Positions 6,027 through 33,258 of a stretch of 33,609 nucleotides of DNA are shown in pieces. The notes below the pieces were generated by a model. It searched no databases and had not been told where the DNA came from. It saw only the letters and a list, made by a program, of their open reading frames with translations. A program made the position numbers and the translations under genes. The stretch's first letter is position 1; each line of letters opens with the position of its first letter. The stretch is from Streptomyces tricolor (GTDB lineage: Bacteria; Actinomycetota; Actinomycetes; Streptomycetales; Streptomycetaceae): contig NZ_MUMF01000067.1 in assembly GCF_002155905.1 (NCBI RefSeq), positions 1-33,609 on the forward strand. The letters are read 5' to 3'.

Positions 6027-6234
6027 CCGCGATGCTCTGGATATCAACTGTCTGGCCGATGTGTGAGGTGGTCGACCAGGCCACTTTTCGCGCTGGATGG
6101 CATGGTCTGCGTGCGGGGCGGAATGGTGATCGTCGTTGGCGTCGAACATGCTATCGGAGGGGTGCGGGCATGCCGATGAGCAGTCCCACTCGGCGGTGAA
6201 GCCGTCGGTGGGCTCGGCAGTATGGAGCCCTTGG

Positions 6235-6376: not shown

Positions 6377-6463
6377 GGCGGCCCCCTCCACTGATCTCCC
6401 GATCCGATTGGACAGAGAGGCATGCGCCTCCGGCAAGGGCGCGTGCGGGATCGAGGGGCGAAG

Positions 6464-6935
6464 TCAGGCCAGAGGGACCACGGGCACGGCGGCCCACTCG
6501 CACACCGTCTCCAGGGCGACCTGCCGGGGGCAGCGGCTGTCGTCCTTCTCGAATCCTTCTCGAAGCACAGCACGGCGACGCGGGACTGCCGGACGTCCGC
6601 GGCGAGGCGGTCGAGATCCGACTGAGCCGCCTCCGGACCGGGGCACGCTGCGCAAGCGCGCCCTGCCCACATCGAGGCGACCGCCCCGGAACGGCTCCCG
6701 GTTGTCCTTGGGATCGGCCAGACCGCGCAGGCGCGTGTACGCGGTGCCAGCCTCGGCGAGCGCCTGCCCGAGCCGGGTCTTGCTGAGCCCTTCTTGCGGC
6801 CGGTTGGCGTGAGCCGCACGTCCGCCCACGACGCCGATACGGCTGTCGAGGAGGGCCGCGCACCCTCTAAACGTGCAGGTCAGACGCTTGGTATGTGGTG
6901 CGGCTTGGGGTCTCGTGGTCTCCAGGAAAAGATCA
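6464..6935 (-). pseudogene. Decayed HTH-DUF488 gene, paralogue of 22427-23107
   Basis: Fragments align with the intact gene in shifted frames: GDDLFLET with LDDLFRET, LSKTRLGQALAEAGTAYTRLRGL with FSKTRLGQALTEAGIEYTHLRGL, GGRLDVGRARLR with DGRLDVGRARFR, and the end DDSRCPRQVALETVCEWAAVPV with DESRCHRQVVLETVRERATVPV. A tandem duplication near 6545-6565 (CTTCTCGAA repeated) and other indels break the frame. The N-terminal HTH is missing. It lies upstream of the truncated 272-aa relic, exactly as in the intact cassette. Confidence 0.8.
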
Positions 6936-7084
6936 TCTCCCAGAATTTTCCCAGCGCCTGCCGCTGTGACCGCCGTTCGCTCCTGCATCGCATCCGCGAG
7001 CGACACTGCAGAAGTAAGTTTGCGTGGCAGTCGGAGCGGCCGGACGCCCCCCGGGGTTGCCGCATTGCTGCCACTCCGAGTCGA

Positions 7085-8266
7085 CTACAGCAGTGACTCT
7101 CGTACCGCAGCGACCAGCGAAGCGGCACGCACATCGTCGCCGCCTCCGATGACGCGGTTCATCGCGTAGGCGAAAGCAACACCGTGTTCCGGGTCGGCGA
7201 AGGCGAGTGACCCCCCTCGGCCAGTGTGACCGAAAGAGCTCGGCCCGATCATCGGGTTGCTCTCGGTGGGCAGCATGTACCCGGCGCTGAAGCGGCTGGG
7301 GATCAGCATGACCTGGTCCTTGCCGCGGGCCTGCTCCTCGGTCGCTGACGCCAGGGCGTCCGGGGAGAGCAGGCGCACGCCGTCCACGTCGCCGATCAGC
7401 GCGGCGTACATGCGGGCAAGAGCGCGTGCGGTGCCGATGCCGTTGGAGGCCGGGAGCTCCGCGGCCTGTACCTCCGGTGAGTCGAAGTCGATCTCGGGCG
7501 GGTCGGTGACGGCGTACGCCCGGTTGCTGAATGAGTTCGGGTCCCGCCAGGCGGCGACCTGTTCGCGGAGTTCCTCGGGGACCGACTCGGTGGGCAGGGT
7601 GGTGAGGTCGACGTCCGGCCGTTGGTACACCATGCGGCTGACGCGGTCGCGTTCGCCGGCGGGCAGGCCGATGAAGAAGTCCAATCCCAGTGGGGCCGCG
7701 ATCTCGTCGGCGAAGAAGCGGCCGGGTGAGCGGCCGGACACCCGGCGGATCACCTCGCCGACCAGCCAGCCCCAGGTCCGCCCGTGGTAGCCGTGTGCTG
7801 TGCCCGGAGTCCAGAGGGGGCGTTGAGCGGCCAGTGCCGCCGCCATCGGGTGCCAGGCCAGCGCCTCCTTCAACGGCACTGGCTGATCCAGCGCGACCAG
7901 GCCGGCCTGGTGGGACAGGAGCCAGCGCACAGGGATGTCCGCCTTGCCATTCGTGGCGAACTCCGGCCAGTACTTCGAGACGGGCGCGTCCAGGTCGAGC
8001 GCTCCGCGCTCGACCAGCATGTGCGCCATGGTTGCCGTCGCGCCTTTGGTTGCCGAGTAGACCAGCTGCAGCGTGTCCCGCGTCCAAGGACGACCGGTTT
8101 CGGCGTCGGCCACGCCACCCCACAGGTCCACCACCGGCCGGCCGTTCCGGTACACGCACACCGCCGCGCCGAGGTCCCCGTGCCGGGTGAAGTTCTCCAT
8201 GAACGCCGTCCGCACCGGCTCGAACCCGGATGCCGCCTCACCGTAGATCGTCGTCATGTCGGCCAT
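7085..8266 (-). CDS. Serine beta-lactamase-like hydrolase/esterase
   Basis: A 393-aa protein with S71-A-T-K74 in QLVYSATKGATATMA, the SxxK nucleophile of class C beta-lactamases and related esterases, and HGYHGRTWGWLVGEV where the catalytic Tyr motif is expected. A C-terminal FGHTGRGGSLAFADP fits the HTG triad in place of KTG. There is no obvious signal peptide, so a cytoplasmic esterase (EstB/LACTB-like) is more likely than a secreted resistance enzyme. The ATG at 8257 has the better ribosome-site spacing and is an alternative start. It lies beside the XRE regulator in the same direction. Confidence 0.88.
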   Translation of the reverse strand: MADMTTIYGEAASGFEPVRTAFMENFTRHGDLGAAVCVYRNGRPVVDLWGGVADAETGRPWTRDTLQLVYSATKGATATMAHMLVERGALDLDAPVSKYWPEFATNGKADIPVRWLLSHQAGLVALDQPVPLKEALAWHPMAAALAAQRPLWTPGTAHGYHGRTWGWLVGEVIRRVSGRSPGRFFADEIAAPLGLDFFIGLPAGERDRVSRMVYQRPDVDLTTLPTESVPEELREQVAAWRDPNSFSNRAYAVTDPPEIDFDSPEVQAAELPASNGIGTARALARMYAALIGDVDGVRLLSPDALASATEEQARGKDQVMLIPSRFSAGYMLPTESNPMIGPSSFGHTGRGGSLAFADPEHGVAFAYAMNRVIGGGDDVRAASLVAAVRESLL

Positions 8267-8329
8267 CCTGGCAGTCTTACAGCCCTGTTCACCGAGACGG
8301 GCTCGTCTCCGGTGGTCAGGCGGTCGACG

Positions 8330-9673
8330 TCAAACGGCGACAGACAGTTCCTGCAGGCGCTCCCGGAACTCGCGGACGGAGGGAACGGACTTGTGCGGCT
8401 CCAGCCGTGTGGAGAACTCCTTGAGGCGGTTCAGGGCCCTAATGGAGCTGACGCTGTCCTCCAGGAGTCCGGCGCCGTAGTTCGCGGCGTCCAACGCGCC
8501 CTCCAGGTCGCCGCCGGCGAGCCGCGCCTCGGCCAGACGGCTCGACCGTACCGCCTTGTCCCGGGGGGCGGCTCTCGTCACAGAGGTCTCCAGGGAACTG
8601 GTCGCGCGTTCCACCTGCCCCGAGCGCAACAGCACCTTTCCCTCGGTCGACCGCAGTTGTGCCTCGCCGAACCAGTTGAGCCAGTCAGGGTTGTCGTCCG
8701 TCGCCTGGCGCTCCCACAGGGAGGTGGCACGGTTGAGGGCCGTGCCGGCTTCGCGGTGGTCGCCGTCGCGTGAGAGGGCCTCTGCCTTGTGCAGGTAGAG
8801 GAACGACTGGGTGCAGGGCGACAGAGAGCGTGGCGCGTTGTCGATGGCGGTCGAGATGAGGTCGACACGCTCGGCCGTGCGCCCTGCCTCGGAGACATGC
8901 ACCCCCATCTCCGCGAGGATGAACGCGCCGAAGGCGTCGTCGCCGGCGGTGCGGGCGCTGCGCAGGGCACCGACGTAATAGCGCTGACCTGCGGACCGTA
9001 GGCCGGCGTCGTAGGCCATCCATCCGGTCAAGTGCGACACGCGGGCCGCCAGCGCGTACAGCCGGAGCCTGACTTTGTCGGTGTAGCGGCCACCGCCGAG
9101 GAGACCGGTGACCAGAGCCAGGTCGCCTCGGGCCTGTTCCAGTAGTCGAGCACCGCCAAGCTGGTCGTCGAGCGTGCGGAGGGTGCCGATGCGCTGCTCG
9201 ATCGTCGAGACCATCGTGTCCGTGACCCGGTCGCCGTTGAGCGCCGCGGCCATGGCGGAGGGCGCGTCCACCCAGCTCGCCGCGAGGCCGGTCAGGGCGG
9301 CTCCTGTGATGGTGAGGAAGCCTCTGCGGTCCATCCGTCCACTCCCCACCAGATCGGACAATGCCTCGACGGTACCGGCCTCTGTCCACGGAGCGGTGAG
9401 CCCGGTCACCTCCCAGACGGGAAGCCAGCGTGGCCATCCCTCCGCACGCGCCTGCTCGTACGGGACGCCCAGCAGGTCGGCGATGACGCGTTGGGCGTCC
9501 GCGTCCGGCTCCTGGCCCTGTGCCCACTTCCATACAGTCGTCCGGTTGGTCGCGAGCGGGACCCCGAGCTTCCTCCCGTGATCCTGCATGAGCCGGGCGA
9601 ATTCGGCCTTGCCCCATCCACGCGTCTGGAGGAGGAAGGTCAGCGGGTGGACTGCTAACGGCTCGGTAGGCAC
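8330..9673 (-). CDS. XRE-type regulator with long C-terminal helical domain
   Basis: A 447-aa protein. Residues about 20-75 form an HTH (LMQDHGRKLGVPLATNRTTV, then WKWAQGQEPDADAQRVIADLL). In the middle is MDRRGFLTITGAALTGLAASW, which mimics a Tat motif but is internal, as often seen in this actinobacterial regulator type. The rest is TPR-like helices (LYLHKAEALSRDGDHREAG). The GTG start at 9673 has GGGAG 7 nt upstream. It is divergent from the HATPase/peptide/oxygenase genes and is probably their regulator. Confidence 0.85.
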   Translation of the reverse strand: MPTEPLAVHPLTFLLQTRGWGKAEFARLMQDHGRKLGVPLATNRTTVWKWAQGQEPDADAQRVIADLLGVPYEQARAEGWPRWLPVWEVTGLTAPWTEAGTVEALSDLVGSGRMDRRGFLTITGAALTGLAASWVDAPSAMAAALNGDRVTDTMVSTIEQRIGTLRTLDDQLGGARLLEQARGDLALVTGLLGGGRYTDKVRLRLYALAARVSHLTGWMAYDAGLRSAGQRYYVGALRSARTAGDDAFGAFILAEMGVHVSEAGRTAERVDLISTAIDNAPRSLSPCTQSFLYLHKAEALSRDGDHREAGTALNRATSLWERQATDDNPDWLNWFGEAQLRSTEGKVLLRSGQVERATSSLETSVTRAAPRDKAVRSSRLAEARLAGGDLEGALDAANYGAGLLEDSVSSIRALNRLKEFSTRLEPHKSVPSVREFRERLQELSVAV

Positions 9674-14712: not shown

Positions 14713-14838
14713 CTCGGCTCCCGCTCCCGTCCTGGGCCCGCACACCCCCGGCACGGGACACCCCCTCACGCCATCCCTAGCGATCGACCGGCAGGCCGGT
14801 GTTGCCGCACCCACGCCCGCCAGAAGAGGACTCACCCC

Positions 14839-15216
14839 TTGAACCGACCCGCAATACCCCCTGCCTCCACGCCGACTCCGCATCCCGACGCCGCTCTGCC
14901 GCGCCTCTACCTCCCCGAGGAAGTCGCCGCCGTCCTCGGCTGCTCCGCCTGGTGGGTCAAGGGCCGCGCCCGCCGACGACTCATCCCGTTCACCCGCGTC
15001 GGCCGCGCCTACCGCTTCTCGTCCGATCACCTCGCCGAGATCGTGCGCATGCACGAAGAGCGCCCGGCCCGAAACCGGCAGCATCCCGGTGGCATTGCTG
15101 TGCCGGCGCGGCAGCCTGCCGTGCGAGAGCGTACCGAGGCAGCCGCGCCCACGGTTCGTCTCAAAGCCCGGCCGCCTCGCCGCATGACCAAGTCCCAGTT
15201 CGGAGTTGCCGCTTAA
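14839..15216 (+). CDS. xis: Excisionase-like winged HTH protein
   Basis: A 125-aa protein with a MerR/excisionase-type HTH ([20 protein letters not shown], then [20 protein letters not shown]). The C-terminus is basic and disordered ([17 protein letters not shown]). It begins with TTG at 14839 behind AGAGGA and ends 32 bp before the integrase, the usual Xis-Int order of actinomycete integrative elements. The xis name is by context and fold, not proven activity. Confidence 0.75.
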
Positions 15217-15248
15217 CGCACCCCACAGGACAGAAGGGAGGGAACCCG

Positions 15249-16757
15249 TTGGGGTACGCAGAGAAGCGCGGCGGCTACTGGCGCGGCCGGTACAAGATCG
15301 GGGACGGCAAGTACGGCACGGTCGCCGGTTCCACGGGTGCCGTGATCAAGTTCGCCACCAAGCGCGAGGCCAAGCAGGCCGCAGACGCGGAAGAGGTGAC
15401 CGTTCGGCGCGGTCAGTGGCGTGACCCGGGGCTTGGGCAGGAGACCTTCGGCGAGTACGCCAGCCGCTGGTACGAGGCCCAGGACCTGGCCGCCTCGACT
15501 ATGCAGAACTACAAGCGCCACATCGAGGAGCACCTGCTACCCGAGTTCGAGGACAAGGCGCTCGCCGGGATCCTGCGCATGGACGTTGACGCCTGGGAGA
15601 AGAAGGAGAAGGCCGTGTACGCGGCCTCCAGCGTCAAGACCTGGCGCTCGACGCTCCACCTGATCTTCGAGGACGCGATCGACGAGGGCCTGATCACGTC
15701 CAACCCGGCCGCCCGGCGGCGCGGGCGCGGTAAACGTGCCGGCCGTTCCCGCAACCGCGGCCCGGAGAAGGTCGTCACCGACGCGCTCGGCATCCTGCTG
15801 ACCGCAGAGCGAGCTGCCCTGCTCTCCGGCCGCGACGACGAGTTCGTCGCCGTCGTTCTCAAGGGCTACACGGGCAAGCGCTGGGGCGAGATCGTCGGCC
15901 TGGAGACCGAGTTCGTCCGGCCAGGTGCATTCCGCGTCGAGTGGCAGCTGTACGAGCTGGACACCGGCGAGCTGGTGCGCTGCCCGCCCAAGGACGATAG
16001 CTACCGCACCATCGACGCGATGGACTGGCTGTCGGCCCTGGTCTTCGACCACATCGCCCGCACGAAGCCGACACCCTGCCCATGCCACGGGCGGACGTAC
16101 GTCTTCCGAGGCCAGGGGACAGCGCGGACCGGCGGCCACCACGGCGCCAAGCTCGCCGACGTAGCCAGGCTGGCCGGGGTCTCCACGGGGACGGTGTCCA
16201 ATGTCCTCAACCATCCCCACCGCGTCGCCGAAGCCACGCGGGTGCGGGTCGAGAGGGCCGTCACCGACCTCGGATTCGTGCGAGGCGGCGCTGTGTCGGG
16301 GCATGCAGCCCACTGGCGTAGGAACGGGTTCGCGACCTGGTTGTTCACGCCGGCGGTCTCTGGCTGGTACCCCAAGAAGGCGCCGCAGGAGGCCCGCCCC
16401 GTGCCCATCCTCGGCGAGCCGTGGCCTGGCATTCCGGCACGAGGACGGGGCGCCACTGATCGCGCCGACGCCTGCTGGCTCCCGATCGCCAGGGGGCTCA
16501 CGCCCCATGGTCTCCGTCACACCCACCGGACGATGATGGAGGACCTGGGCACGGAAAAGGTGCTCATGGACGAGCGAATGGGCCACCTCGACGGTTCGAT
16601 CTCCGCCCGCTACGCCCACGTCACCCCTGGCATGCGCCGGCGCCTCATGCTCGGTCTCACGGCACAGTGGGAGGCATCCCTCGACGCCCGTCGGGCGATG
16701 AATTGGAGGTCGCCAGTCGCCGTGCTCGATCGGTTGCTCTTGGCCCGGGCCGTCTGA
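15249..16757 (+). CDS. int: Tyrosine recombinase/integrase with internal LacI-type HTH
   Basis: A 502-aa protein from TTG 15249, with AGGGAGGG 8 nt upstream. The N-terminal part has AP2-like and core-binding domains ([31 protein letters not shown]). The catalytic residues are all visible: R211 ([13 protein letters not shown]), H420 and R423 (HGLRHTH), H446 (MGHLDG) and Y455 (SARYAHV). Between the first Arg and the HxxR box, residues about 300-347 read like a LacI-family HTH headpiece ([20 protein letters not shown], then [15 protein letters not shown]). The frame stays open through it. The enzyme looks intact. A strong terminator follows, but no recognisable att site lies beside it. Confidence 0.88.
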
Positions 16758-16844: not shown

Positions 16845-17653
16845 CGTGCGTTCGTCAGTCGACGAGGTCGTGGGATGCGACTCTATTTTAGGGGCGAGTC
16901 GGGCATGTACACGTCGGGTAAACGCGTGTGGGCATCACAATCCGTGCGGGGGCTCGCCAACGATGTCCCTCTTCAGGATCACGAAGTGCAGCAAATGGCC
17001 CACAGAGCGGCGCGCCAGCGGCGGTCGTTGCCCCTGCATGTCGATCTTCATCTTGCTTCAGCAGTCTGAGCACCTGAGCTGCTCCCGCCCTTCAGGTAGA
17101 CGTGCGCATGGTGGACACCCATCCCGGGACAGTTGCTGCCGGCCCTCTATCAACCGCACGGTGGCCTACCGCCTCCTGGCCCCTGCGGCCCCTGTCAACA
17201 TGGCTCTTTTGCGAAGGTGCACGCAATGATGCTGTGCGCGTGGGTTGAGACGCGCAGGCCGGGAAGGACCCGCGGGAAGCGACAGACCTTGCACAGGCTG
17301 TGAATATCGCCTAGTCGGGGGTGGGCGCTGTGCAGGATCCGTCGGCCGTACTGCCCAAGATGGCCGAGTTGCTGGAGCCGCTGGCGGCCGGAAAAGTGCT
17401 CGGTCTGATCACTGAGGAGATCACTGGCGAAATGGGAGCTGCGGCGTGACCGAATCCGATGGCTTCCTGTCGGTGCTCTCGCCGTCGTAGTCGGCGGTGC
17501 AGCTCTCCTGTAGGGAGCTGCACCCCGCGGGCAGCTAAAATTGCGGCTTCGCTCGGCAGGACTGTGCGACACGCACCTCCTGCACGACAATGGCCGCCGG
17601 GACCAGACGTCCCTCGCTGCCCTGTACGCCTTGATGCTCTTGGAGCCCTCGCC
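16845..17653. other. No confident gene; possible scar region
   Basis: About 800 bp between the integrase terminator and the restriction-modification gene. Only short frames are present. One of 39 codons (GTG 17330 to TGA 17447-17449) encodes MAELLEPLAAGKVLGLITEE and could be the tail of a lost gene. Base composition is mixed and no coherent protein was recognised on either strand, which fits an insertion or deletion scar. Confidence 0.4.
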
Positions 17654-20600
17654 TTGACGCTCTCCGTCCCTCCCTCGCCTACCGCGCTCGAAACCGTGCT
17701 CAAGCGGATCGTCGAGCGCAAGGCTGTGCGCGCCGAAGCGACGCTGCAGGCCGACATCCGCCAGTTCCTGCTGGATGCGGATCTCAACCTCGGCGAGCAG
17801 GACCTCCTGGATCCCGTGCTGGAAGCGCAGGTGGGCGACGGCACCGGTCACCGCATCGATATCGAGATGGGCGCGACCGTCATCGAGGTCAAGAAGGACA
17901 TCAGCCGCCCAAAGATCCGCAAGGAAGCGGTCGCACAACTGGCAAAATACGTGAGGGCCCGGACAGAGCAGCGCGAGCGCCGGCACGTCGGTATCCTCAC
18001 CGACGGCGCTGACTGGCGCGCCTACACGCTGGTCAACAACGAGCTGAAGGAGGTCAACCATTTCGATGCGCGGGAGCGCAACGTCAAGGCACTTGACCTG
18101 GTCCGGTGGCTCGAAGGTGTCCTTGCCACGTCCGAGGGCGCGGTACCCACGCCAGATGCCATCGCAACCCGCCTTGGGGCGGACAGCGTCGCTCACTCCA
18201 TCGACAAGGCGGTCCTTGCCGCGCTGTACGAGGAGAACAAGAGTCTGCCGACCGTACAGCTGAAGCGCGACCTGTGGTCGCGTTTGCTGCGCAGCGCCCT
18301 GGGTGCCCAGTTCGAGGACAGCGATGATCTGTTCATCGAGCACACGCTCCTGGTGAACACTGCCTCGATCATCGCCCACGCAGTGATGGGCATCGACGTG
18401 AAGGACACCCCACCCGCCTCCCTGGTCTACGGCCAGCTGTTCACACAGGCGCGGATCTCGGGTGTGGTCGAGTCGGACTTCTTCGGCTGGCCACTGGAGA
18501 CCGAGGGTGGCGAGGGCTTCGTCCAAGACCTGTCTCGTCGCCTCGCCGGCTTCGACTGGTCAAAGGTCGAGCACGACGTACTGAAGGTTCTGTACGAGTC
18601 GGTGATCGCCGCAGAGACCCGTAAGAAGCAGGGCGAGTACTACACGCCGGACTGGCTGGCGGAAGCGACAGTGGCCGAGGCTGTCCCCGATCCGCTGAAC
18701 CAGCGGATGATGGACCCGTCGTGTGGTTCTGGCACGTTCCTCTTCCACGGCGTCCGCCGCTACCTGGCTGCCGCACGGGACATGGGGCTGCCGCTGCGCG
18801 AAGCGCTGGAAGGCGTCCACGACCATGTTGCTGGCATTGATCTACACCCCGTCGCCGTGGCGTTGGCTCGCGTCACCTACCTCCTGGCTATCGGCCGCGA
18901 GACACTTACCTCTGAGGAGCGAGGCCCGATAAGCGTCCCCGTCTACCTTGGTGACAGCCTCCAGTGGGACCAGCGCACCGACCTCATCGACCACGGCCAC
19001 CTCGTCATCCAAACCGGCACAGGCAACCAGCTCTTCACCAACGAACTTCGCTTCTCGGAAGCCCTTTTGCAGGACGCCAGCCGCTTCGACGCTATTGTCA
19101 ACGAGCTAGCTGACAAGGCTGCCGACCCACACCGCAGTCAAGGCAAGTTGCCCTCCCTCAATGCCCTCTTCAACCGGCACGGGATCTCCGACGCGGATGA
19201 CCGAGACGAGCTCGCAGAGAACTTCCGCGTCCTATGCGACCTGGTCGACGAGGGCCGCAACCACATCTGGTCCTACTACGTGCGAAACCTGGCCCGCCCC
19301 ATGTGGCTGTCCCGTGCCGAGAACCGTGTTGACGTTCTCGTCGGCAATCCGCCCTGGCTGTCCTACCGGCACATGCCCGAGTACATGCAGAAGACCTTCA
19401 AAGCGATGATGCAAGCCCGGGGTCTGTGGAAGGGCTTCGAGGTCGCCACCCACCAGGACCTGTCGGGCCTATTCATTGCCCGCGCGGTCCAGCAGTACCT
19501 ACGCGTGGACGGTACGTTCGCTTTCGTCGTGCCCAACCCGGTGCTCGACCGCCCCTACTGGACCGGATTCCGCAGCGGAGATTGGGCTGACCCTGACCAC
19601 CCCGTCAAGGTCAACTTCACTGGATCCTGGGACCTTCGCCGACTGCGTCCGCACTTCTTTCCCCGCGCCGCCGCCGTCATCTTTGGACGCCGCCGCCCAC
19701 TCGGCATCGGAGAACAGGGCAACAACGCCGTCGCACTGCCCAGGCAGACCGAGATCTGGACCGGGAAGATCGCCAAGAGCGCCGCTGATTGGGAACGTGC
19801 CAAGGGCTGGATCACCCGGCAGAAGGGCGAGCTGCGCTACCCCAAGGAAGGGCTGATCAGTTCGCCATACAGGGACCGCTTCATGAACGGGGCAACCATC
19901 TTCCCGAAGGTGCTCTTCTTCGTTAAGGAGCAGACTGCCAGCCCCCTCGGTCTCGGCGGCGGTCGAGTGTCGGTCCGCTCCCAGCGCAGCACTCTGGAGA
20001 AGAAGCCCTGGAAGGACCTCCCTGACCGGGAAGGCTCGGTCGAGAAGCAGTTCGTCCGGCCCATCCTGCTCGGCGAGCACGTCGTCCCCTACCGGATCAT
20101 GGGTGCCGACAAGGTCATCCTGCCCATCGAGGGGACGAATACCCTCATGGACGGTGAGCATGACCACCTCGACCGTTACCCAGACCTGGCGAAATGGTGG
20201 CGCGATGCGGAACGGCTCTGGGATGACAACCGCGCCAGTGACCGGCTTTCTCTGATCGAACAGCTCAACTTCCGGCAGAAACTGACCGATCAACTCCCCG
20301 GCGCACCGCTGCGAGTGGTGTACGGAGCCTCTGGGATGTACGTCACGGCGGCACTGGTAGAAGATCCGAACGCCGTCATCGAGCACAAGTTGTACTGGGG
20401 AACCGTCGCGACCCGGCAGGAGGGCATGTATCTTCTCGCGGTGCTCAACTCGCCCTATACCACGGAAGCCGTGCGCCCGCTCATGTCCTACGGCAAGGAC
20501 GAACGAGACATCGACAAGGCCGTATGGGAGCTGCCCATCCCGGACTTCGACCTTGCCGATCCCAAGCACGTTCGAATCGCGGAGATCGGTGAGACCGAGT

Positions 20601-20734
20601 CTCAGCGGATCGCGGAGCTGAAGTTCGAGGAGGGCAAGAGCTACATCCAGATCCGCCGCACCCTGCGCGACTTCCTCCTCAGCTCCCCCGATGCCGAGGA
20701 ACTGGATCAACTGGTCACCGAACTACTCGGCTGA
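17654..20734 (+). CDS. Single-chain (type IIG-like) restriction endonuclease-DNA adenine methyltransferase
   Basis: A 1026-aa protein from TTG 17654, with GGAG 8 nt upstream. The N-terminal nuclease domain shows the PD-(D/E)xK pattern: D69 in RIDIEMG and E78-V-K80 in TVIEVKKD. The methylase domain has QGEYYTPDWLA (motif X region), DPSCGSGTFLF (SAM motif I, D354) and VLVGNPPWLSY (catalytic NPPW, N565), i.e. N6-adenine methylation. The roughly 210 residues between motif I and NPPW are more than usual. The C-terminal region should hold target recognition. Cleavage, methylation and specificity thus appear in one chain, so no separate subunits are needed; none are nearby. It is an anti-phage component of the island. 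Confidence 0.85.
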   Translation: MTLSVPPSPTALETVLKRIVERKAVRAEATLQADIRQFLLDADLNLGEQDLLDPVLEAQVGDGTGHRIDIEMGATVIEVKKDISRPKIRKEAVAQLAKYVRARTEQRERRHVGILTDGADWRAYTLVNNELKEVNHFDARERNVKALDLVRWLEGVLATSEGAVPTPDAIATRLGADSVAHSIDKAVLAALYEENKSLPTVQLKRDLWSRLLRSALGAQFEDSDDLFIEHTLLVNTASIIAHAVMGIDVKDTPPASLVYGQLFTQARISGVVESDFFGWPLETEGGEGFVQDLSRRLAGFDWSKVEHDVLKVLYESVIAAETRKKQGEYYTPDWLAEATVAEAVPDPLNQRMMDPSCGSGTFLFHGVRRYLAAARDMGLPLREALEGVHDHVAGIDLHPVAVALARVTYLLAIGRETLTSEERGPISVPVYLGDSLQWDQRTDLIDHGHLVIQTGTGNQLFTNELRFSEALLQDASRFDAIVNELADKAADPHRSQGKLPSLNALFNRHGISDADDRDELAENFRVLCDLVDEGRNHIWSYYVRNLARPMWLSRAENRVDVLVGNPPWLSYRHMPEYMQKTFKAMMQARGLWKGFEVATHQDLSGLFIARAVQQYLRVDGTFAFVVPNPVLDRPYWTGFRSGDWADPDHPVKVNFTGSWDLRRLRPHFFPRAAAVIFGRRRPLGIGEQGNNAVALPRQTEIWTGKIAKSAADWERAKGWITRQKGELRYPKEGLISSPYRDRFMNGATIFPKVLFFVKEQTASPLGLGGGRVSVRSQRSTLEKKPWKDLPDREGSVEKQFVRPILLGEHVVPYRIMGADKVILPIEGTNTLMDGEHDHLDRYPDLAKWWRDAERLWDDNRASDRLSLIEQLNFRQKLTDQLPGAPLRVVYGASGMYVTAALVEDPNAVIEHKLYWGTVATRQEGMYLLAVLNSPYTTEAVRPLMSYGKDERDIDKAVWELPIPDFDLADPKHVRIAEIGETESQRIAELKFEEGKSYIQIRRTLRDFLLSSPDAEELDQLVTELLG

Positions 20735-22426: not shown

Positions 22427-23107
22427 TCAGGCCAGGGGGATGACGGGTACCGTGGCCCGCTCGCGGACCGTCTCCAGGACGACCTGCCGGTGACAGCGGC
22501 TCTCGTCCTTCTCGAAGCACAGCACCGCGACCCGCGACTGCTGGGCGTGCTCAGCCAGGCGGTCGAGATCGGCCTGCGCCTCCTCGGACCGCAGCACATC
22601 ACGGAAGCGGGCCCGGCCCACGTCCAGGCGGCCATCCCAGAAGGGCGCCCGGTTCTCCTTGGGATTCCCCAGGCCGCGCAGGTGGGTGTACTCGATGCCG
22701 GCCTCGGTGAGTGCCTGCCCGAGGCGGGTCTTGCTGAAGCCCTTCTTGCGGCTGATCGGCGTCAGCCTGACGTCCGCCACTACATCGATACGGCTGTCGA
22801 GGAGCGAGGCGACGAACGAGTCGATGTCCCGCCCTTCGTATCCGGCGGACCACAGGCCGGGGGTGCCGTGGGTCTCCCGGAACAGATCATCCAGAGAGAC
22901 CTCAAGAGCCTCTGCGATCGCGCCGACGGTGAAGAAACCTGGCTGGATCGCTCCCTCGCTCTCCAGGCGAGCCAGCGTTCTGTTGCTGATGCAGGCTTCC
23001 TTGGCGAGCTGCTCCCGTGACCACCCGCGGGCTTCCCGTAGCGCCCGCACTCGCTGGGCGAGCGCGCGAGCGTGGTCGTGAGGACGCGCTGAGTGATGGC
23101 CTGCCAT
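22427..23107 (-). CDS. HTH-DUF488 fusion protein
   Basis: A 226-aa protein. Residues about 12-75 are an XRE HTH (LAQRVRALREARGWSREQLA, then CISNRTLARLESEG). The rest is DUF488: GLWSAGYEGRDIDSFVASLL, VVADVRLTPISRKKGFSKTR, EAGIEYTHLRGLGNPKENR, and VAVLCFEKDESRCHRQVVLE. The DVRxxPxSRxxGFSK and CFExDxxRCHR motifs are hallmarks of DUF488, whose activity is not established but which is common in mobile and defence regions. Start ATG 23107 with AGGA upstream. The HTH suggests self-regulation or DNA targeting. It is first in a two-gene unit with the 272-aa protein. Confidence 0.85.
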   Translation of the reverse strand: MAGHHSARPHDHARALAQRVRALREARGWSREQLAKEACISNRTLARLESEGAIQPGFFTVGAIAEALEVSLDDLFRETHGTPGLWSAGYEGRDIDSFVASLLDSRIDVVADVRLTPISRKKGFSKTRLGQALTEAGIEYTHLRGLGNPKENRAPFWDGRLDVGRARFRDVLRSEEAQADLDRLAEHAQQSRVAVLCFEKDESRCHRQVVLETVRERATVPVIPLA

Positions 23108-23298
23108 GTGTCGTGATCCTAATGGCGGTTGAGGCGGGCGGGCATGGTGTTCCCGGTCAGTCACGGGGCCGGATTCGCGAACGCGCAGGTCCGAGTGCCC
23201 TCAGCTGCCGCACCCCATGCAGCCTCACCGGGCGCCCTCTGGGAGAAGCCGACCAAGATCTTCTCCCGGATTTCTCCCAAACGATCTCCAGGAACCAC

Positions 23299-23335: not shown

Positions 23336-23350
23336 CCTGGTACTACGGCG

Positions 23351-23392
23351 TCGGGGTGGCGGGATTTGAACCCACGACCTCTTCGTCCCGAA
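23351..23392 (-). other. tRNA-Pro(CGG) 3' fragment, integration attachment site
   Basis: On the minus strand the sequence runs from the anticodon loop (TTCGGGA, anticodon CGG with G37) through CGAAG, variable loop, T arm (GTGGG-TTCAAAT-CCCGC) to the acceptor strand CACCCCG plus discriminator A at 23351. The D arm, acceptor 5' strand and the 5' anticodon stem are absent; upstream sequence does not pair. Beginning at the anticodon loop is typical of tyrosine-integrase cores in tRNA genes, and pSAM2 of Streptomyces uses a tRNA-Pro gene. Because the native terminator lies to the left, the inserted element must lie to the right. Confidence 0.85.
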
Positions 23393-23454
23393 GCAACTCG
23401 GGTAAGGGTGCTGCCTTGAGCTGCTACGGCGCTCACCTGGACTGATGGTCCGCA

Positions 23455-23497
23455 GGCGTTCGCGGTTGTTCGCCGACGTTTGCTGGCGTTGTCACGC
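23455..23497. promoter_or_regulatory. Possible integrase arm-site repeats
   Basis: Close direct repeats of a GTTYGC-like word occur (GCGTTCGCGG, TGTTCGCCG, CGTTTGCTGG, CGTTGTCACG) some 65 bp from the tRNA fragment, on the element side. Arm-type integrase sites would be expected here. The repeats are degenerate. The remainder of 23393-23748 shows no gene. Confidence 0.3.
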
Positions 23498-23748
23498 AGT
23501 TAGACACTCACCCTGGTCGGTGTGAGCTGTGCCATGACATCCCTCGTCAGCTCCGAACGTCGTTGGGGGGTTCGTAGCGCATGGACTACCGCCAGGCACG
23601 CATGCGGGGCCGTGGTCGAACCACGCATAGTTGTGGCACACGAGGCTCCAACTTGCACTGCGGATCACCTGAAGCGCGAAACGGCCCCACGCAGACCAGA
23701 CTTGAGGGATCATGATGCTCAGAGTCATCACCATGAGTGGGGGGATCT

Positions 23749-24087
23749 ATGTACAAAGAGGTTGAGTCTGCCCAGGGAGACTCCTTCTTCCTGGTCGAAG
23801 TCGTGCCTCTGGCAGTTGAGAACTTTGATCAGTCGAAGCTGCTTAGAGGTGCTGGGCGGTCCGCCCAGCAGGCGCTCAGTGGGCTTCGGGAGGTAGGCGA
23901 CGCAATCGCGCAGACCTGCGAAGACGTATCTGCAGCAATCCGCGGTCGATTCGGCGACTCGCCACCAAGCGAGTTGGAAGTGCGATTTGGGGTATCCCTC
24001 TCCGGGGAGGCCGGGGTGCCGCTCGTTGGAAAGGTCAAGGCCGACTCCACCTTCGAGGTACGTGCTAGGTGGACGCCGAGAACCTGA
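23749..24087 (+). CDS. Trypco1-like (CU044_2847 family type) small protein
   Basis: A 112-aa protein from ATG 23749, with GGGGGGAT just upstream. Pattern: an N-terminal strand (DSFFLVEVVP), a central helix with AGRSAQQALSGLREVGDAI, then SELEVRFGVSLSGEAGVPLV and FEVRARWTPRT. This layout, with ExxFGxxLSGEAG and a final beta strand, is that of the trypsin-co-occurring domain 1 proteins (CU044_2847 family), known as companions of peptidases in actinobacterial conflict systems. Here the partner is not trypsin-like but the AAA-subtilase pair 121 bp downstream on the same strand. It probably acts as an adaptor or regulator of that system (inference). Confidence 0.7.
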   Translation: MYKEVESAQGDSFFLVEVVPLAVENFDQSKLLRGAGRSAQQALSGLREVGDAIAQTCEDVSAAIRGRFGDSPPSELEVRFGVSLSGEAGVPLVGKVKADSTFEVRARWTPRT

Positions 24088-24159
24088 GCTGATGCGTCAA
24101 CACACGCCGGACCAGGAGTGGTAAATCTCGCCTCATAGGGTGACGTGCGTGAACCACTA

Positions 24160-24171
24160 GGGGGATCCCCC
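24160..24171. promoter_or_regulatory. GGGGGATCCCCC palindrome before the AAA ATPase gene
   Basis: This perfect 12-bp palindrome is embedded in a longer imperfect one (AACCACTA...CCTGGTT, 24152-24177) and ends 37 bp before the ATPase start. TTGACA follows at 24176, and a TAACCT -10-like box (24196-24201) ends 7 bp before the ATG, which suggests a leaderless transcript; the 14-bp spacing to TTGACA is short. An operator for the ATPase's own HTH is possible. Confidence 0.45.
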
Positions 24172-24208
24172 CTGGTTGACAGTAGGCCCTCTTGGTAACC
24201 TTCCCCGC

Positions 24209-25411
24209 ATGGGTGCGTCGTCGTGGCAGGGTAAGGCAGGCCTCAGTCCGACTGAGAGGGCACTGCTTGAAGTGATGGATGCTGGCCTCAGGGCGGACAC
24301 GCAGGCGGTTCGTGAGCACTGCCGGCGTCTTATGCGGCGTCCACCTGAGGATGCGCATCACGCCGTGACTCTGCGCGCGGAGCTGAGGGCTTTGCTCACA
24401 GCTTCGCAGGGGCACAACCCGCTTCGTGGAGTTGACGTAGCACAAGGTGCCGATCCTGTTGCTCCAGAGGCAATGAACCTCCCACGGGATCCTGAGACCA
24501 ACCAAGTTCTACTACGCGTAGCGGAGACTGCTGCGAGTCATGGCCCCATCTTGGATGAGGCCACGCGACGCCGTGTAGACGCTCTCATTGCTGAACGCCC
24601 CGTGCGTGAGGCGTTGGTAGATGCCGGCCTTCAGCCTTCACGTAGCGTGCTTCTCAGCGGACCGCCTGGCGTCGGTAAGACTCTCACTGCGTCCCATATC
24701 GCAAGCCAGATGAAGCAGACGCTTCTAGTTGTCGACTTGGCTTCATTGATGTCCAGTTACCTGGGGCGTACCGGGCGCAATCTTCGATCTATCCTTGATT
24801 ATGCTGCGCAGAATGAATGCGTCTTGTTCATTGATGAATTTGATGCCTTGGCTAAGCGGCGCGAGGATGACTCGGATGTTGGTGAACTGAAGAGGTTGGT
24901 CAACGTCCTCCTGTTGGAGCTTGACCGGTGGCCAGCCGGGAGTTTTCTGATTGCCGCCACGAATCATAAAGAACTACTGGATTCGGCGATTTCTCGACGG
25001 TTCGATGTCTTGATAGAGCTTCCCCTTCCGGCGACCGAAGAAAGGAAGCTCCTAATTTCGTCTCTTCCTGTGATTGTTTCCAGTGCAGTATCTGATGATA
25101 CCTGTGCGCTAATGGCGCTAGCGACGGACGGCCTTTCGCATTCAGATATCGTGCGTTTGTGCAACGGTATCGCCAGGGAAACGATTGTACGGGATGGCGG
25201 TCTATCCTCCCTTGAGGAAGGCCTTGTCAGCCTAGCTGTACCAAAACTACGCGAGCTGGCCGGCGAGGATGCGAAGGTCCGAGAGCAGGTCGCAGTGGCA
25301 GCGAGCGTGCACCTAGGGCTTTCGAACCGGAGAATCGCCAACATCCTCGGCGTTAGCCATCCGACCATTAGTAGGGCAATCGCAGCGTTCCAGGAGCGCG
25401 AGCAGCGGTAA
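24209..25411 (+). CDS. AAA+ ATPase with C-terminal HTH, IetA-like
   Basis: A 400-aa protein. Walker A GPPGVGKT at 151-158, Walker B LFIDEFDAL (D209, E210), sensor 1 AATNHKELLD and arginine-finger SRRFDVLIELPLP make it a classic, probably ring-forming, AAA+ ATPase of the FtsH/SpoVK-like group. The last 30 residues (GLSNRRIANILGVSHPTISR) look like a resolvase/LuxR-type HTH, so it may bind DNA. There is no ribosome site before ATG 24209; a leaderless start is likely, with TTG 24176 as alternative. It lies directly before a subtilisin-like protease, the composition of the IetAS anti-phage system. Base usage is visibly more AT-rich than that of its neighbours. Confidence 0.85.
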   Translation: MGASSWQGKAGLSPTERALLEVMDAGLRADTQAVREHCRRLMRRPPEDAHHAVTLRAELRALLTASQGHNPLRGVDVAQGADPVAPEAMNLPRDPETNQVLLRVAETAASHGPILDEATRRRVDALIAERPVREALVDAGLQPSRSVLLSGPPGVGKTLTASHIASQMKQTLLVVDLASLMSSYLGRTGRNLRSILDYAAQNECVLFIDEFDALAKRREDDSDVGELKRLVNVLLLELDRWPAGSFLIAATNHKELLDSAISRRFDVLIELPLPATEERKLLISSLPVIVSSAVSDDTCALMALATDGLSHSDIVRLCNGIARETIVRDGGLSSLEEGLVSLAVPKLRELAGEDAKVREQVAVAASVHLGLSNRRIANILGVSHPTISRAIAAFQEREQR

Positions 25412-25478
25412 ATGAGTCTTTGGGGGCGGGGAAATGAGTAAGGGGTCTGGCGGCCGCATCCTCGTAGGAGGAGAGCAC

Positions 25479-27767
25479 ATGTCGGAGATGATTGACAGGG
25501 TAGGTGGAGGGGGAAACAAGTTCCATCCGCACACGCTGGCGGATTCGCAAAGAATCCTTGGGCCACAGGCGTTGGTGCTTCGTGACGCTGCGCGCACATT
25601 GGATGAGGAGTTGCGTGCGGGGCATGTGGTTTTTGAGGTGAAGCTACTCCCGAACTATTTGGCGAATAGCTACTTCCCTGAAAGACTAGTTAAGTTGCTT
25701 GGGCTCACCGCCCTAGGCTCTCGCCCTGCGACTGGAGATTTAGTACAGCGCAGTAAGACAGAATTCGATGTGCCGACTAAGTCCTTAATTGTCGCTGGCG
25801 ACAATGACAGCCTTGAGCAACTGACTCATATCCTCTCGGGAGGTGTGCTGAACCGCCGAGAAAAAGGGGCGGCGGAGGATCTCCGGCGATTTTCTGACAT
25901 TCACCTACCGCGAGTGACTGAAGTTGTAAAAGGCTTGGCAGGCGACGTCACGGAACTCGCTGCGGAACGGGAGGCATTCGAGGCGGTCCTGCACCCTGAT
26001 CCGGATACTCCTGGAATGTCGCGACGACCTCTGCCGGACGAGATTTTTGGGAAATTTGAGCGGTACATTCGAACGCTCGGGGGCGAAGTCGTCAGTGACA
26101 GGCGTGACGCCGTAGGCGGACTGACGTTTGTGCCAGTTCTTCTTCCTCCAGGAAAATTGAAGGAAGCTGCAGCGTTCAACCCGTTGCGCTCCATACGCAA
26201 GATGCCGCGCATTCGTCCCGTGCCGGCCACTCCCCTTCGATCGGCCCCCGGCGTTTCTAAGCCCCCGCCCCCGCCTGCTGCGGCTGACGCGCCAGAGGTA
26301 CTCATCTTTGATGCTGGTGTTGACGCTAATGGCGACTTCTTCGCAGGCTCTGTTAGCCAAATAGATCTTACCGACAAACCACCCTTCCCTGGGTGCATAG
26401 AACACGGTAGCGCTGTAACGGGCGCCATTCTGTACGGAAATGTCGAAGCAGGGAGCCGCCTGCAGTCCCCGCAGGTGCGTGCCACTCACTACCGCTGCAT
26501 TCCTGGGCAGGACACTGACGGGGTCGAGCTTTACTGGCTCCTGGATCAAGTCCAGAAGCAAGTTGCAGACAGCGATGCAATGATCGTTAATCTCAGTCTC
26601 GGGCCTGAGGTTCCAGTTGACGATGGTGAGCCGCACCGGTGGACGGCCGTGCTGGATGCGCTGGCGTACGAAAGGGACATCCTTTTCGTTGTTGCTGCTG
26701 GGAATAACGGTGAGGAAGTTGGAGAGGGGGCAAACCGAGTTCAGGTGCCCGCCGATATGGCTAACGGCCTTAGCGTCGGCGCTTGTGACCGACCGCACCC
26801 GGAAATGATGTGGTCGCGGTCGTCATATAGCGCGATCGGTCCTGGTCGCCCAGGTGCGACGGTCCAGCCGGCAGTACTGGCCTACGGGGGGGATACTGAC
26901 CGGCCCTTTGCGCGCCTGATGGGCGACGGGCGGCTTTCCTACGAGTGGGGTACCAGTTATGCCGCGCCGCTTGCAGCACACGGTCTGGCTAAGCTCAGTA
27001 CCCAGCTAGGCGACCGGTCTAGTGCCTCCGCGCTGCGAGCCTTCGCGATTCATTTTGCGGAGCCGCATGCCGATGCAGACCATACATTGGAATCGGGATA
27101 CGGGAGACTTCCGGCGGACTTCTCGGACGCGCTTCTTTGTTCTGACCGACAGGTGACTGTTCTGTATCAGGCTTCAATTGAGCGTGAGCAGATACTTGGG
27201 TTCACACTGCCGGTTCCTGCTGGGGTTGACAGGGGAAAGGTAAAGGTGAAATGGACTCTTGCCTATTCCTCGCCTACCGACCCAACAGAGGCTGTTGAGT
27301 ACACGGAGTCGGGCTTGGAGTTCACCCTCCGCCCTCACTCGGAGGTGTACAGCTTTCGTGACCCCGAAAATCCTCGTCGTGTAGTCAAGGTCAACATTCA
27401 GGAGGAGGCGGAACGCGTGGCAGCCCTTCTTGAGGAGGGCTGGAAAATGAGTCAGCAGCCAAGTACCCGTTCTCAGAAGGTTGGCCCAAAGGCCTCAGAA
27501 TCCAGTCGTCGTCGAGGAGGGAAGTGGGAGACTGTGATGCAAGGGCAGGATTGCCTGATGGCAAGGAGTCTCCACCTGCCGAGACTTGATATCGAGTTCC
27601 TTACCCGCGAAGGCGGAGTGCTGACAAGGGACTCTCCCCCGGTGGATTTTTCGTTGGTTGTAACCGTTGAGTCGCTTTCCGGGCTCCCGGTATATGATTT
27701 GGCGAAAGTTGACTTCCCAGTGCTTTCCGAGTTGCCAGTTCCCGTTCCGGTGCGGCTTCGGACGTAG
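25479..27767 (+). CDS. Subtilisin-like (S8) serine protease, IetS-like
   Basis: A 762-aa protein. I chose ATG 25479 because of the GGAGGAGAG ribosome site 5 nt upstream; ATG 25434 is possible. Catalytic triad of the S8 family: D278 (LIFDAGVDANG), H309 (CIEHGSAVTGAI) and S493 (WGTSYAAPLAAHG), with the oxyanion Asn in VVAAGNNGEE. There is no signal peptide, and about 250 residues precede the protease domain (FEVKLLPNYLANSYFPERLV), so it acts inside the cell. A beta-rich C-terminal domain follows (WTLAYSSPTDPTEAVEY). Family knowledge: paired AAA ATPase plus subtilase is the IetAS defence pair. Its stop codon overlaps a long inverted repeat. Confidence 0.87.
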   Translation: MSEMIDRVGGGGNKFHPHTLADSQRILGPQALVLRDAARTLDEELRAGHVVFEVKLLPNYLANSYFPERLVKLLGLTALGSRPATGDLVQRSKTEFDVPTKSLIVAGDNDSLEQLTHILSGGVLNRREKGAAEDLRRFSDIHLPRVTEVVKGLAGDVTELAAEREAFEAVLHPDPDTPGMSRRPLPDEIFGKFERYIRTLGGEVVSDRRDAVGGLTFVPVLLPPGKLKEAAAFNPLRSIRKMPRIRPVPATPLRSAPGVSKPPPPPAAADAPEVLIFDAGVDANGDFFAGSVSQIDLTDKPPFPGCIEHGSAVTGAILYGNVEAGSRLQSPQVRATHYRCIPGQDTDGVELYWLLDQVQKQVADSDAMIVNLSLGPEVPVDDGEPHRWTAVLDALAYERDILFVVAAGNNGEEVGEGANRVQVPADMANGLSVGACDRPHPEMMWSRSSYSAIGPGRPGATVQPAVLAYGGDTDRPFARLMGDGRLSYEWGTSYAAPLAAHGLAKLSTQLGDRSSASALRAFAIHFAEPHADADHTLESGYGRLPADFSDALLCSDRQVTVLYQASIEREQILGFTLPVPAGVDRGKVKVKWTLAYSSPTDPTEAVEYTESGLEFTLRPHSEVYSFRDPENPRRVVKVNIQEEAERVAALLEEGWKMSQQPSTRSQKVGPKASESSRRRGGKWETVMQGQDCLMARSLHLPRLDIEFLTREGGVLTRDSPPVDFSLVVTVESLSGLPVYDLAKVDFPVLSELPVPVPVRLRT

Positions 27768-31540: not shown

Positions 31541-31888
31541 GTGCGTGTGATCCCCGTAGACACCTCCGCCGCGACGCTGCTCGTCACCAAGCTCCCTGAG
31601 GTCAAGGTCAGGGACCGTCAGACCGGCGAGGTCGCCGTGGACCCGGTGACCAACCAGCGGCTCATGACGCTGGAGCTGGTGTTCATCGCGGCCGGCGGCT
31701 CGGACATGATCAAGGTGACCATTCCCGAAGAGGGGATCGGAGACGGCCTGGTCATGGGCGCGCCGGTCATCCTGTCGGGTCTGGTCGCCCGGCCGTGGGA
31801 AAGCGAGTTCGGCGGGCGTAGCCGCCACGGCATCGCCTACCGGGCCGACGCGGTCATGGTCAACGCCCCGGTCACGGCACAGGGTTGA
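31541..31888 (+). CDS. SCO3933-like regulatory protein of integrative elements
   Basis: A 115-aa protein from GTG 31541. It is a small beta-rich protein: LVTKLPEVKVRDRQTGEVAV, LELVFIAAGGSDMIKVTIPE, then GAPVILSGLVARPWESEFGG. The family is regularly found right before the FtsK-like transfer gene in Streptomyces AICEs, as here (5-bp gap). The role is unproven; a single-strand or nucleic-acid-binding OB-like fold is possible (inference). Confidence 0.75.
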   Translation: MRVIPVDTSAATLLVTKLPEVKVRDRQTGEVAVDPVTNQRLMTLELVFIAAGGSDMIKVTIPEEGIGDGLVMGAPVILSGLVARPWESEFGGRSRHGIAYRADAVMVNAPVTAQG

Positions 31889-31893
31889 TCGCC

Positions 31894-33258
31894 ATGACTG
31901 ACGTCGCCTGGGTCCTGCTGCTGGTCCTGCTCCTCGTGGTCGCGCTGCTGGTGGTCCGTCGGCGGATGCCGGTGGTGTTCTGGTGGCTGGTCGGGTATCC
32001 GGCCGTCGCGTTGCGGGTGCTGCTGTCGTACCGGGCGACGATGGACGCGTGCGGCCTGACGGTCCCGGCTTCCGCCGTCCGGGTCGCCACGGCCCGGGTG
32101 ATCGGGCGGCAGGCGGCACCCGTCCCGCCCCGGCGGTCCTTCCCCCGGCCCAACGCATCCGGACTCGTCATGCGGCTTCGCATGGCGACCGGGCAGGCGC
32201 CCGAGGACTTCACCGCCTCGGCCGACCGACTGCGTCATGCCTGGGGCGCCCACGCCGTCCACGTACGCCCCACGAAACCCGGCTGGCTCGAACTGCGGCT
32301 CGTTGGGTGGGACGTGCTCGCCGATGTGCGGCCCGCCCGGCGTCAGGCTGCGACCGAGCCGCTCCGCCTGCCGCTGGCGCTGCGAGAGGACGGCGACTGG
32401 CACGTACGCGACTTTCGCACCGTGCCGCACGAACTGATCCTCGGCGCCACGCAGTCCGGAAAGTCCGTCTACCTGCGCAACCTGCTGTGCGGCCTGGCCC
32501 GGCAACGGGTCGTCCTCGTCGGGATCGACTGCAAATGGGGTGTCGAACTCGCGCCCTTCGCACCTCGGTTGTCAGCGCTGGCCGACGACCCGGACCGGGC
32601 GAACGACCTCCTCGACGCGCTGCTGGAAGAGATGGAGGACCGGTTTCGACTGATCGGGCTCAGTGGTGCCGATCCGGACGCTGTTCTCACCTCGGACGTC
32701 TGGGGGCTGCCGGACGCCGTACGGCCAGTCCCGGTAGTGCTGGTCGTTGACGAGGTGGCGGAACTCTTCCTCGCCGCGAACCGGGACGACGAGAAGCGGC
32801 GGGACGCGATGGTCACCAAGCTCATCCGCCTCGCCCAGCTCGGCCGCGCGGCCGGCATCTACCTCGAAGTCTGCGGGCAGCGCTTCGGCTCGGAACTCGG
32901 CAAGGGCGCCACCATGCTGCGGGCCCAACTGACCGGCCGCGTCTGCCACCGCGTCAACGACGAAGCGTCGGCGAACATGGCCCTGGCCGACATCTCTCCC
33001 GAGGCAGCGTTGGCCGCCACGTCCATCCCAGCCGACCGGCCCGGCGTCGCGGTCGTCGGCGACTCGTCCGGCGGCTGGTCCCGCATCCGCTCCCCTCTTC
33101 TCTCGCTCGAAGATGCGGCGGCCGTCTGCCGCGACACCTCAACCCTGGTCCCGGAACTGCCCCGGCTCGACCGCTTCCGGCCCGCCGTCGCCGTCGCATC
33201 GGCCGGGCCGTCCCCCTCGACCGGCACCACGCCCACCGCGCGCCCGGTAACCGAGTAG
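31894..33258 (+). CDS. FtsK/SpoIIIE-type DNA translocase, TraB/TraSA-like transfer protein
   Basis: A 454-aa protein. Two N-terminal membrane segments (VLLLVLLLVVALLVV; VVFWWLVGYPAVALRVLL) are followed by an FtsK-type motor: Walker A GATQSGKS at 184-191 and Walker B VVLVVDEVAEL with D286. GRAAGIYLEVCGQRFGSELG is the conserved segment after Walker B. The length fits the single-protein TraB-like translocases that move double-stranded DNA between mycelia in Streptomyces. It identifies the region as an AICE/conjugative plasmid backbone. ATG 31894 is preferred over a TTG three codons earlier. Confidence 0.88.
   Translation: MTDVAWVLLLVLLLVVALLVVRRRMPVVFWWLVGYPAVALRVLLSYRATMDACGLTVPASAVRVATARVIGRQAAPVPPRRSFPRPNASGLVMRLRMATGQAPEDFTASADRLRHAWGAHAVHVRPTKPGWLELRLVGWDVLADVRPARRQAATEPLRLPLALREDGDWHVRDFRTVPHELILGATQSGKSVYLRNLLCGLARQRVVLVGIDCKWGVELAPFAPRLSALADDPDRANDLLDALLEEMEDRFRLIGLSGADPDAVLTSDVWGLPDAVRPVPVVLVVDEVAELFLAANRDDEKRRDAMVTKLIRLAQLGRAAGIYLEVCGQRFGSELGKGATMLRAQLTGRVCHRVNDEASANMALADISPEAALAATSIPADRPGVAVVGDSSGGWSRIRSPLLSLEDAAAVCRDTSTLVPELPRLDRFRPAVAVASAGPSPSTGTTPTARPVTE

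Follow-up and report, generated by a model that had tools for sequence, protein, structure and literature searches.

The contig NZ_MUMF01000067.1 of Streptomyces tricolor, analysed here over its entire 33,609 bases (the window) and belonging to a genome of 8.8 Mb, carries three consecutive genes that form a rare three-gene lineage of the known IetAS system. These genes encode a Trypco1 protein, an IetA-type AAA+ ATPase with a C-terminal helix-turn-helix (HTH) and an IetS-type subtilase of peptidase family S8 (Table 1). They lie as cargo at the attR end of an integrative conjugative element of the pSAM2 type, opposite its integrase. IetAS, a pair of ATPase and protease genes, was reportedly described as an anti-phage system by Gao et al. 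in 2020. The additional upstream gene is confined to five of the loci that we surveyed, in which the three genes have travelled together and Trypco1, like IetA and IetS, is under purifying selection.

Table 1. Positions of the trio, its functional residues and associated element features in the window
Feature	Position	Strand	Evidence or remark
Trypco1 protein, 112 aa	23749..24087	+	Pfam and NCBIfam profiles; first gene of trio
Conserved TTGGTAACCT plus GCATG, directly 5' of IetA start	24192..24211	+	kept in 4/4 aligned loci
IetA-type AAA+ ATPase with C-terminal HTH, 400 aa	24209..25411	+	PADLOC IetA, Pfam AAA and HTH_23
IetA Walker A, GPPGVGKT	24659-24682	+	
IetA Walker B region	24824-24847	+	
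IetA HTH	25316-25381	+	
IetS-type subtilase (S8), 777 aa	25434..27767	+	PADLOC IetS, Pfam Peptidase_S8
Catalytic Asp293 codon GAT	26310..26312	+	invariant in 44/44 IetS
Catalytic His324 codon CAC	26403..26405	+	invariant in 44/44 IetS
Catalytic Ser508 codon AGT	26955..26957	+	invariant in 44/44 IetS
attR, 3' part of tRNA-Pro(CGG)	23350..23392	-	43/43 bases equal intact gene
Conserved 137-base block including part of att core	23376..23512	.	upstream of trio in three Streptomyces relatives
SCO3933 family protein of element	31541..31888	+	NCBIfam NF051478, 117.6 bits, cut-off 80
FtsK/SpoIIIE-type transfer protein (TraB-like)	31885..33258	+	Pfam, 117 bits

Identity and conservation of the three genes

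An initial interpretation made from the letters of the window alone (the sequence-only reading) had proposed a trio of Trypco1, AAA+/HTH ATPase and subtilase at these positions, and profile searches identified all three. The first protein scores 52.1 bits against Pfam PF19493, above the curated threshold of 24.6, and 49.1 bits against the NCBIfam CU044_2847 family (cut-off 23); the Trypco1 proteins of the three relatives tested (L057, L047 and L152) also pass the Pfam cut-off. Its start was correctly placed at ATG 23749, which has a ribosome-site-like GGGGGGA run in front and a GTG at the equivalent codon in three relatives; the alternative GTG 23737 was judged less likely. The proposed resemblance of the other two proteins to the IetAS pair was likewise borne out, with PADLOC scores of 273 bits for IetA and 141 bits for IetS. 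Pfam matches to the ATPase were AAA (109 bits) and HTH_23 (27.5 bits, cut-off 24.6), and Peptidase_S8 matched the protease at 92.8 bits. The IetA start is most likely ATG 24209; the open frame reaches back to TTG 24176, a less likely start.

Numbered from the conserved start at 25434, residues D293, H324, N424 and S508 of IetS are invariant in all 44 aligned IetS proteins. The residue previously called Ser493 is indeed the catalytic serine, but that number had been counted from an internal methionine. The protease comprises a prodomain-like region (~aa 178-257), a catalytic domain (~272-568) and a beta-rich C-terminal domain. Its AlphaFold2 model, with a mean predicted local distance difference test score (pLDDT) of 86.7, aligns with unprocessed pro-subtilisin E (3whi) from residue 178 over 319 residues (Z 23.7, root-mean-square deviation 4.1), so that a subtilisin-like prodomain probably precedes the catalytic domain. 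The VIA-align rows for IetS cover mainly residues 272-705, and the first 175 residues are barely probed by them.

One element of the proposed variant did not stand. The C-terminal HTH of the ATPase had been counted as part of the unusual architecture; this was ruled out, as the HTH recurs across the IetA family: HTH_23 matches 10 of 22 IetA proteins from several phyla (E 0.01), and the PADLOC IetA profile spans the same region. Other HTH models match two to five IetA proteins each, perhaps the same members (25 of 46 families listed). The conserved TTGGTAACCT in front of IetA could, at a guess from the sequence, act as the -10 box from which IetA and IetS are transcribed without a leader, in which case expression of the pair would be separable from that of Trypco1. 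The gap around it differs in large part in the most distant of the four aligned loci, that of the Streptomyces genome G606.

Gene neighbourhoods were surveyed at 115 IetA loci, drawn from whole genomes, plasmids, phages and IMG/VR contigs, using a Trypco1 hidden Markov model built from 30 other Trypco1 proteins; L098 was omitted as the same stretch as L050. A downstream S8 partner was found by profile at 111 loci and not at the other four, and among remote AAA loci some of these partners may match only weakly (E limit 0.001). Trypco1 lies directly upstream of IetA in five of the 115, namely those of the window, S. atriruber, S. niveus and a further Streptomyces, G606, together with L152, which belongs to an IMG/VR contig of 60.6 kb. 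It is absent from 106 of the 111 IetA-S8 loci; in 108 of the 111 the sequence extends 1 kb or more upstream. The recurrence of the same gene order in four further loci disfavours a chance neighbourhood, and the suggestion of a variant IetAS architecture is upheld by a Trypco1 gene that is kept beside the pair within its own clade. In the 350 bases 5' of IetA, surveyed for the 108 pairs whose upstream sequence reaches 700 bases or more, Trypco1 was the only family found directly upstream in more than two representatives at 90% identity. A further upstream cluster in three loci proved to be an out-of-frame reading that overlaps Trypco1.

The L152 locus has its trio in the same order (Trypco1 5577-5894, IetA 5989-7125, IetS 7115-9463), with 36%, ~40% and 44% identity to the respective window proteins, and its Trypco1 passes the Pfam cut-off at 61.4 bits. 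Of four neighbouring open reading frames (ORFs) tested, three have matches to phage families with no assigned function, so this locus plausibly sits on a phage-like contig. Directly 5' of its Trypco1, a 286-residue protein (L152:4594-5454) with a phrog_3634 match and no Pfam match could be a further component of that locus.

Searches of individual collections delimit the distribution further. With an E value limit of 1e-40, the window IetA retrieves relatives from five of 392 Streptomyces genomes, its own included. Three of these (the window, S. atriruber and G606, at least 62% IetA identity) have Trypco1 directly upstream, which was not found at that position in the other two (~40% identity); S. 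niveus, from a separate collection, has it as well. A 13-bit match of L049, one of the two ~40% loci, to the window Trypco1 (E 0.0035) is antisense to IetS, unsupported by the other profile and regarded as chance. No relatives were found on plasmids with the window Trypco1 as query or in phages with that of L152. Among viral contigs a trypsin-type Trypco1 query gave one match and a trio-type query only the L152 contig. IetA relatives occur on plasmids (35 records) and in viral contigs, where a scan with a single IetA sequence found none and an alignment-based search gave the loci. Beside IetAS, genes for multiubiquitin, ThiF and ImmA/IrrE form a cassette in four of 12 plasmid regions viewed (L098, L118, L121, L122).

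Phylogenies of the three proteins are concordant in grouping the trio loci. A single branch of the IetA tree (77 of 110 sequences, representatives at 90% identity) sets the five loci apart from the rest with support 81/83, and none of 500 shuffles was as low. The same split is seen in the IetS tree, which was inferred by a quick method from 63 of those 77 (IetS longer than 600 residues, E below 1e-60), with a Shimodaira-Hasegawa-like approximate likelihood ratio test (SH-aLRT) value of 99. In a Trypco1 tree of 35 rows, the five proteins are split from the 30 others with support 100/99. L152 is outermost in all three. It is followed in the IetA and IetS trees by G606 and then the window, S. atriruber and S. 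niveus; in the Trypco1 tree G606 pairs with S. niveus on weak branches (SH-aLRT 44-45). The window IetA falls within a 68-row group apart from nine remote AAA rows, the other rows of this tree not having themselves been scored against PADLOC. As the five loci branch together in all three trees, including L152 at 40% IetA identity, we conclude that the three genes have travelled together.

Ratios of nonsynonymous to synonymous substitution rates (dN/dS) demonstrate purifying selection on each gene. Against S. atriruber and S. niveus, respectively, they are 0.082 and 0.117 for Trypco1, 0.061 and 0.068 for IetA, and 0.055 and 0.065 for IetS; against G606 dS is saturated and gives no ratio.

The pSAM2-type element and its surroundings

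The attR of the window corresponds to an intact tRNA-Pro(CGG) gene on another contig of the same genome, C668, where the neighbouring genes encode a tyrosine integrase and the pSAM2 replication initiator RepSA (501 bits). We infer that C668 and the window, which are separate contigs, are the two ends of one element. With this joining, the element combines integration at a tRNA gene, an integrase, RepSA and an FtsK-type transfer protein, and so shares with pSAM2-type elements their tRNA-Pro attachment, tyrosine integrase, replication initiator and transfer protein; it differs in carrying the trio at the end opposite the integrase. The best NCBIfam match of the transfer protein is plasmid TraB at 42 bits, far below the cut-off of 800. 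The trio had previously been placed at the entry end of a conjugative element; what stands is that it lies at attR, shown only as one end of a pSAM2-type element. In S. niveus a single contig contains RepSA, integrase, att site, conserved block and trio in that order, as expected of a circular form or tandem copy.

The 137-base block, which starts inside the tRNA-Pro att core, has matches in 63 of 150 Streptomyces genomes (E 1e-5), with at most five per genome and a few that reach the tRNA part only. It is far commoner than the trio and is probably the attP arm region of an element family. The spacer from this block to the trio varies from ~155 to ~1030 bases, and the trio itself is unbroken.

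To the left of attR the window encodes a type IIG restriction-modification-like protein (17459-20734) and a protein with XRE-HTH and DUF488 domains (22427-23164, minus strand), which places further defence-like genes only a few kilobases from the trio. Farther left, a tyrosine-recombinase-like frame (14799-16757) has a LacI-type HTH (~aa 450-494) inside its recombinase part.

Candidate roles of Trypco1

On balance we lean towards the view that the trio is a three-gene IetAS subtype, resident on the pSAM2-type element, in which a subtilase toxin is restrained by IetA and Trypco1 serves as adaptor or sensor. IetS would be an intracellular subtilase toxin made with its own prodomain and kept inactive by the AAA+ ATPase IetA, whose C-terminal HTH may regulate IetA's own promoter. 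Trypco1 would be a dedicated third component acting on the ATPase-protease pair and taking up a trigger, whether a phage infection or the element being lost or disturbed, whereupon IetS would cut cell proteins and the infected or element-free cell would stop growing. The toxin and antitoxin roles are taken from relatives; the part of Trypco1 as adaptor or activator, the trigger and the growth arrest are those that we infer. We know of no activity that has been shown for Trypco1.

Two relatives have been tested as toxin-antitoxin pairs of AAA-ATPase and subtilase, SgiAT of Salmonella Genomic Island 1 (PMC5006074) and A132/T133 of Mycoplasma mycoides (PMC8562856); in both the protease is the toxin and the ATPase the antitoxin. 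The authors of the former report identities of 50% to IetA and 36% to IetS of pTiC58 (PMC5006074). As in the trio, the ATPase gene is upstream and the subtilase gene downstream, on mobile or transferred DNA. These systems are described there as two-gene modules, whereas the window has three genes, with toxicity predicted from the relatives.

The name Trypco1 derives from the trypsin-like peptidases of VMAP ternary systems (Kaur et al. 2020; PMC7159879), and it has been termed an adapter domain (PMC10907252). In the accessible text of PMC7159879 the sole mention of subtilisin concerns a NucA system, and the literature library searched, as far as its texts were available, yielded no paper linking Trypco1 with IetAS. 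We sampled 30 other Trypco1 loci, four from the genome of the window and 26 from its class. The association with trypsin-like peptidases previously noted for Trypco1 holds for 23 of the 30, which have a same-strand downstream trypsin-like frame, and fails for seven, at which no adjacent trypsin was found. For three of the loci in the window's genome, Pfam identified trypsin with nSTAND1 in two and trypsin with VMAP-C in one; at the fourth, trypsin was not found. In the cases examined, the proteins with trypsin next to Trypco1 are large and have several domains, and at one examined locus the neighbouring frame has no Pfam match. At L137 (1748-3292) Trypco1 is followed by a CHAT (caspase-like) peptidase rather than trypsin.

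VMAP ternary and nSTAND1 systems thus resemble the trio in placing Trypco1 directly before a serine protease with an NTPase partner, and differ in having trypsin with MoxR or nSTAND1 where the trio has a subtilase with IetA. The components of a VMAP ternary system (a MoxR ATPase, a vWA protein and VMAP with trypsin or caspase) were not found in the window, the 26 of its ORFs scanned with Pfam giving no match to MoxR, vWA, VMAP-C or trypsin. A general association of Trypco1 with S8 proteases was considered and rejected: an upstream S8-like frame on the opposite strand occurs at four of the 30 loci (L002, L128, L129, L132), all of which have a downstream trypsin and were left out of the trio count. 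A wider view of the first of these (L053:506-4276, minus strand) revealed a 1256-residue Peptidase_S8 protein diverging from Trypco1 and a trypsin/VMAP-C pair. Two Streptomyces plasmids with Trypco1 and a trio-sized unannotated gap were also set aside, as IetA and IetS matches were not found there; the protein encoded in the plasmid gap has a TCAHVV motif, which we take to be of trypsin type. Where it could be seen, the factor shared by Trypco1 loci is an NTPase-tied protease, in the case of VMAP through the published MoxR partner. As a tentative extension, Trypco1 could be a sensor-adaptor that is interchangeable among NTPase-gated proteases generally and not an accessory of trypsin.

Similarly tentative is the possibility that the trio mainly stabilises the conjugative element, through addiction after its loss, with any effect on phages a by-product. 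One IetAS relative helps to maintain SGI1 (PMC5006074), and another stabilises pTiC58 according to the title of a cited reference (Yamamoto et al. 2009); the trio is on an integrative element, and relatives occur on plasmids and viral contigs. Pointing the other way are the defence-like type IIG and DUF488-HTH neighbours in the window, the grouping of the pair with anti-phage systems by PADLOC and its anti-phage name in NCBIfam. In addition, SgiAT under its own promoter in E. coli gave no post-segregational killing (PMC5006074), which weighs against a pure addiction role. The initial suggestion that the trio is defence cargo therefore fits, but as one of two fitting purposes, since toxin-antitoxin and stability functions are likewise on record for the pair (PMC5006074, PMC8562856).

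We consider it unlikely that Trypco1 binds directly to the protease as a second antitoxin, an inhibitor or an aid to folding. It is small, and its gene opens the operon, where antitoxin genes usually lie and where the antitoxin of the mycoplasma and SGI1 relatives is encoded (PMC8562856, PMC5006074), and proteases accompany it as a rule. However, the partners of Trypco1 differ in protease fold, being of trypsin type and once CHAT, which disfavours an inhibitor of the active site, and IetS already has a prodomain-like region as well as IetA as its antitoxin by homology. Less probable again is a role as substrate or effector, cut by IetS to yield a product that halts growth or signals. The Trypco1 gene does adjoin that of the protease, and trio-type Trypco1 proteins have in common the segment FGVSL.G..G.P, but the great majority of IetA-S8 pairs do without Trypco1, and relatives described as two-gene modules are toxic.

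That Trypco1 is a passenger, beside IetAS by chance, is highly improbable: four of the five trio loci are Streptomyces, all with the att-side block, and the recognised transfer, replication or integration genes of the window, S. atriruber and S. niveus imply that the linkage is partly shared descent of the element, but a trio unbroken despite its variable spacer, purifying selection and joint branching are not expected of a passenger, and the linkage persists on phage-like L152, where integrase, RepSA and TraB were not found in the 13 kb searched.

Several observations weigh against our preferred reading of a three-gene subtype with Trypco1 as adaptor or sensor. The predicted structure of Trypco1 is poor (mean pLDDT 56, from an alignment of only five sequences), was kept out of the fold search and gives no structural hint preferring adaptor to inhibitor; a search of solved structures by its sequence gave nothing convincing (best E 0.23). 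The trio is rare: a profile of trio-type Trypco1 matches three of 392 Streptomyces genomes, a wider profile matches only the window's own genome among 217 across the phylum, where a second, weaker match is one of its trypsin-type Trypco1 proteins, and Trypco1 accompanies one of 80 IetA loci on viral contigs (best 80 of 142). The trio resembles IetAS (IetA/IetS in PADLOC, IteA/IteS in NCBIfam) in the order of AAA+ ATPase and directly downstream S8 protease with intact triad, and differs in the extra upstream Trypco1 and in sequences far from the NCBIfam equivalogs. IteA and IteS are the best matches of that library, yet score 231 bits against an equivalog cut-off of 510 and 120 bits against 900. 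Support for the IetA branch joining the five loci is only that given above, and L152 is a long branch there, which makes its position in that tree less certain. The seven Trypco1 loci at which no trypsin was found and the result for SgiAT in E. coli also count here, as does the assessment by the mycoplasma authors that their own tests in E. coli and B. subtilis were rather inconclusive overall (PMC8562856).

Implications for IetAS and Trypco1

Trypco1 is without a match among the PADLOC models, which recognised only the other two genes of the trio, and such scans would consequently report IetAS without its third gene. Since Trypco1 here joins a compact two-protein module for whose relatives simple toxicity assays exist, its effect on a protease is directly testable. 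If Trypco1 is an interchangeable sensor-adaptor, the same protein would fit trypsin-STAND systems, trypsin-VMAP/MoxR systems and the AAA+ subtilase pair IetAS, and the IetAS toxin-antitoxin module of one lineage would have become a three-part, trigger-specific proteolytic immune switch.

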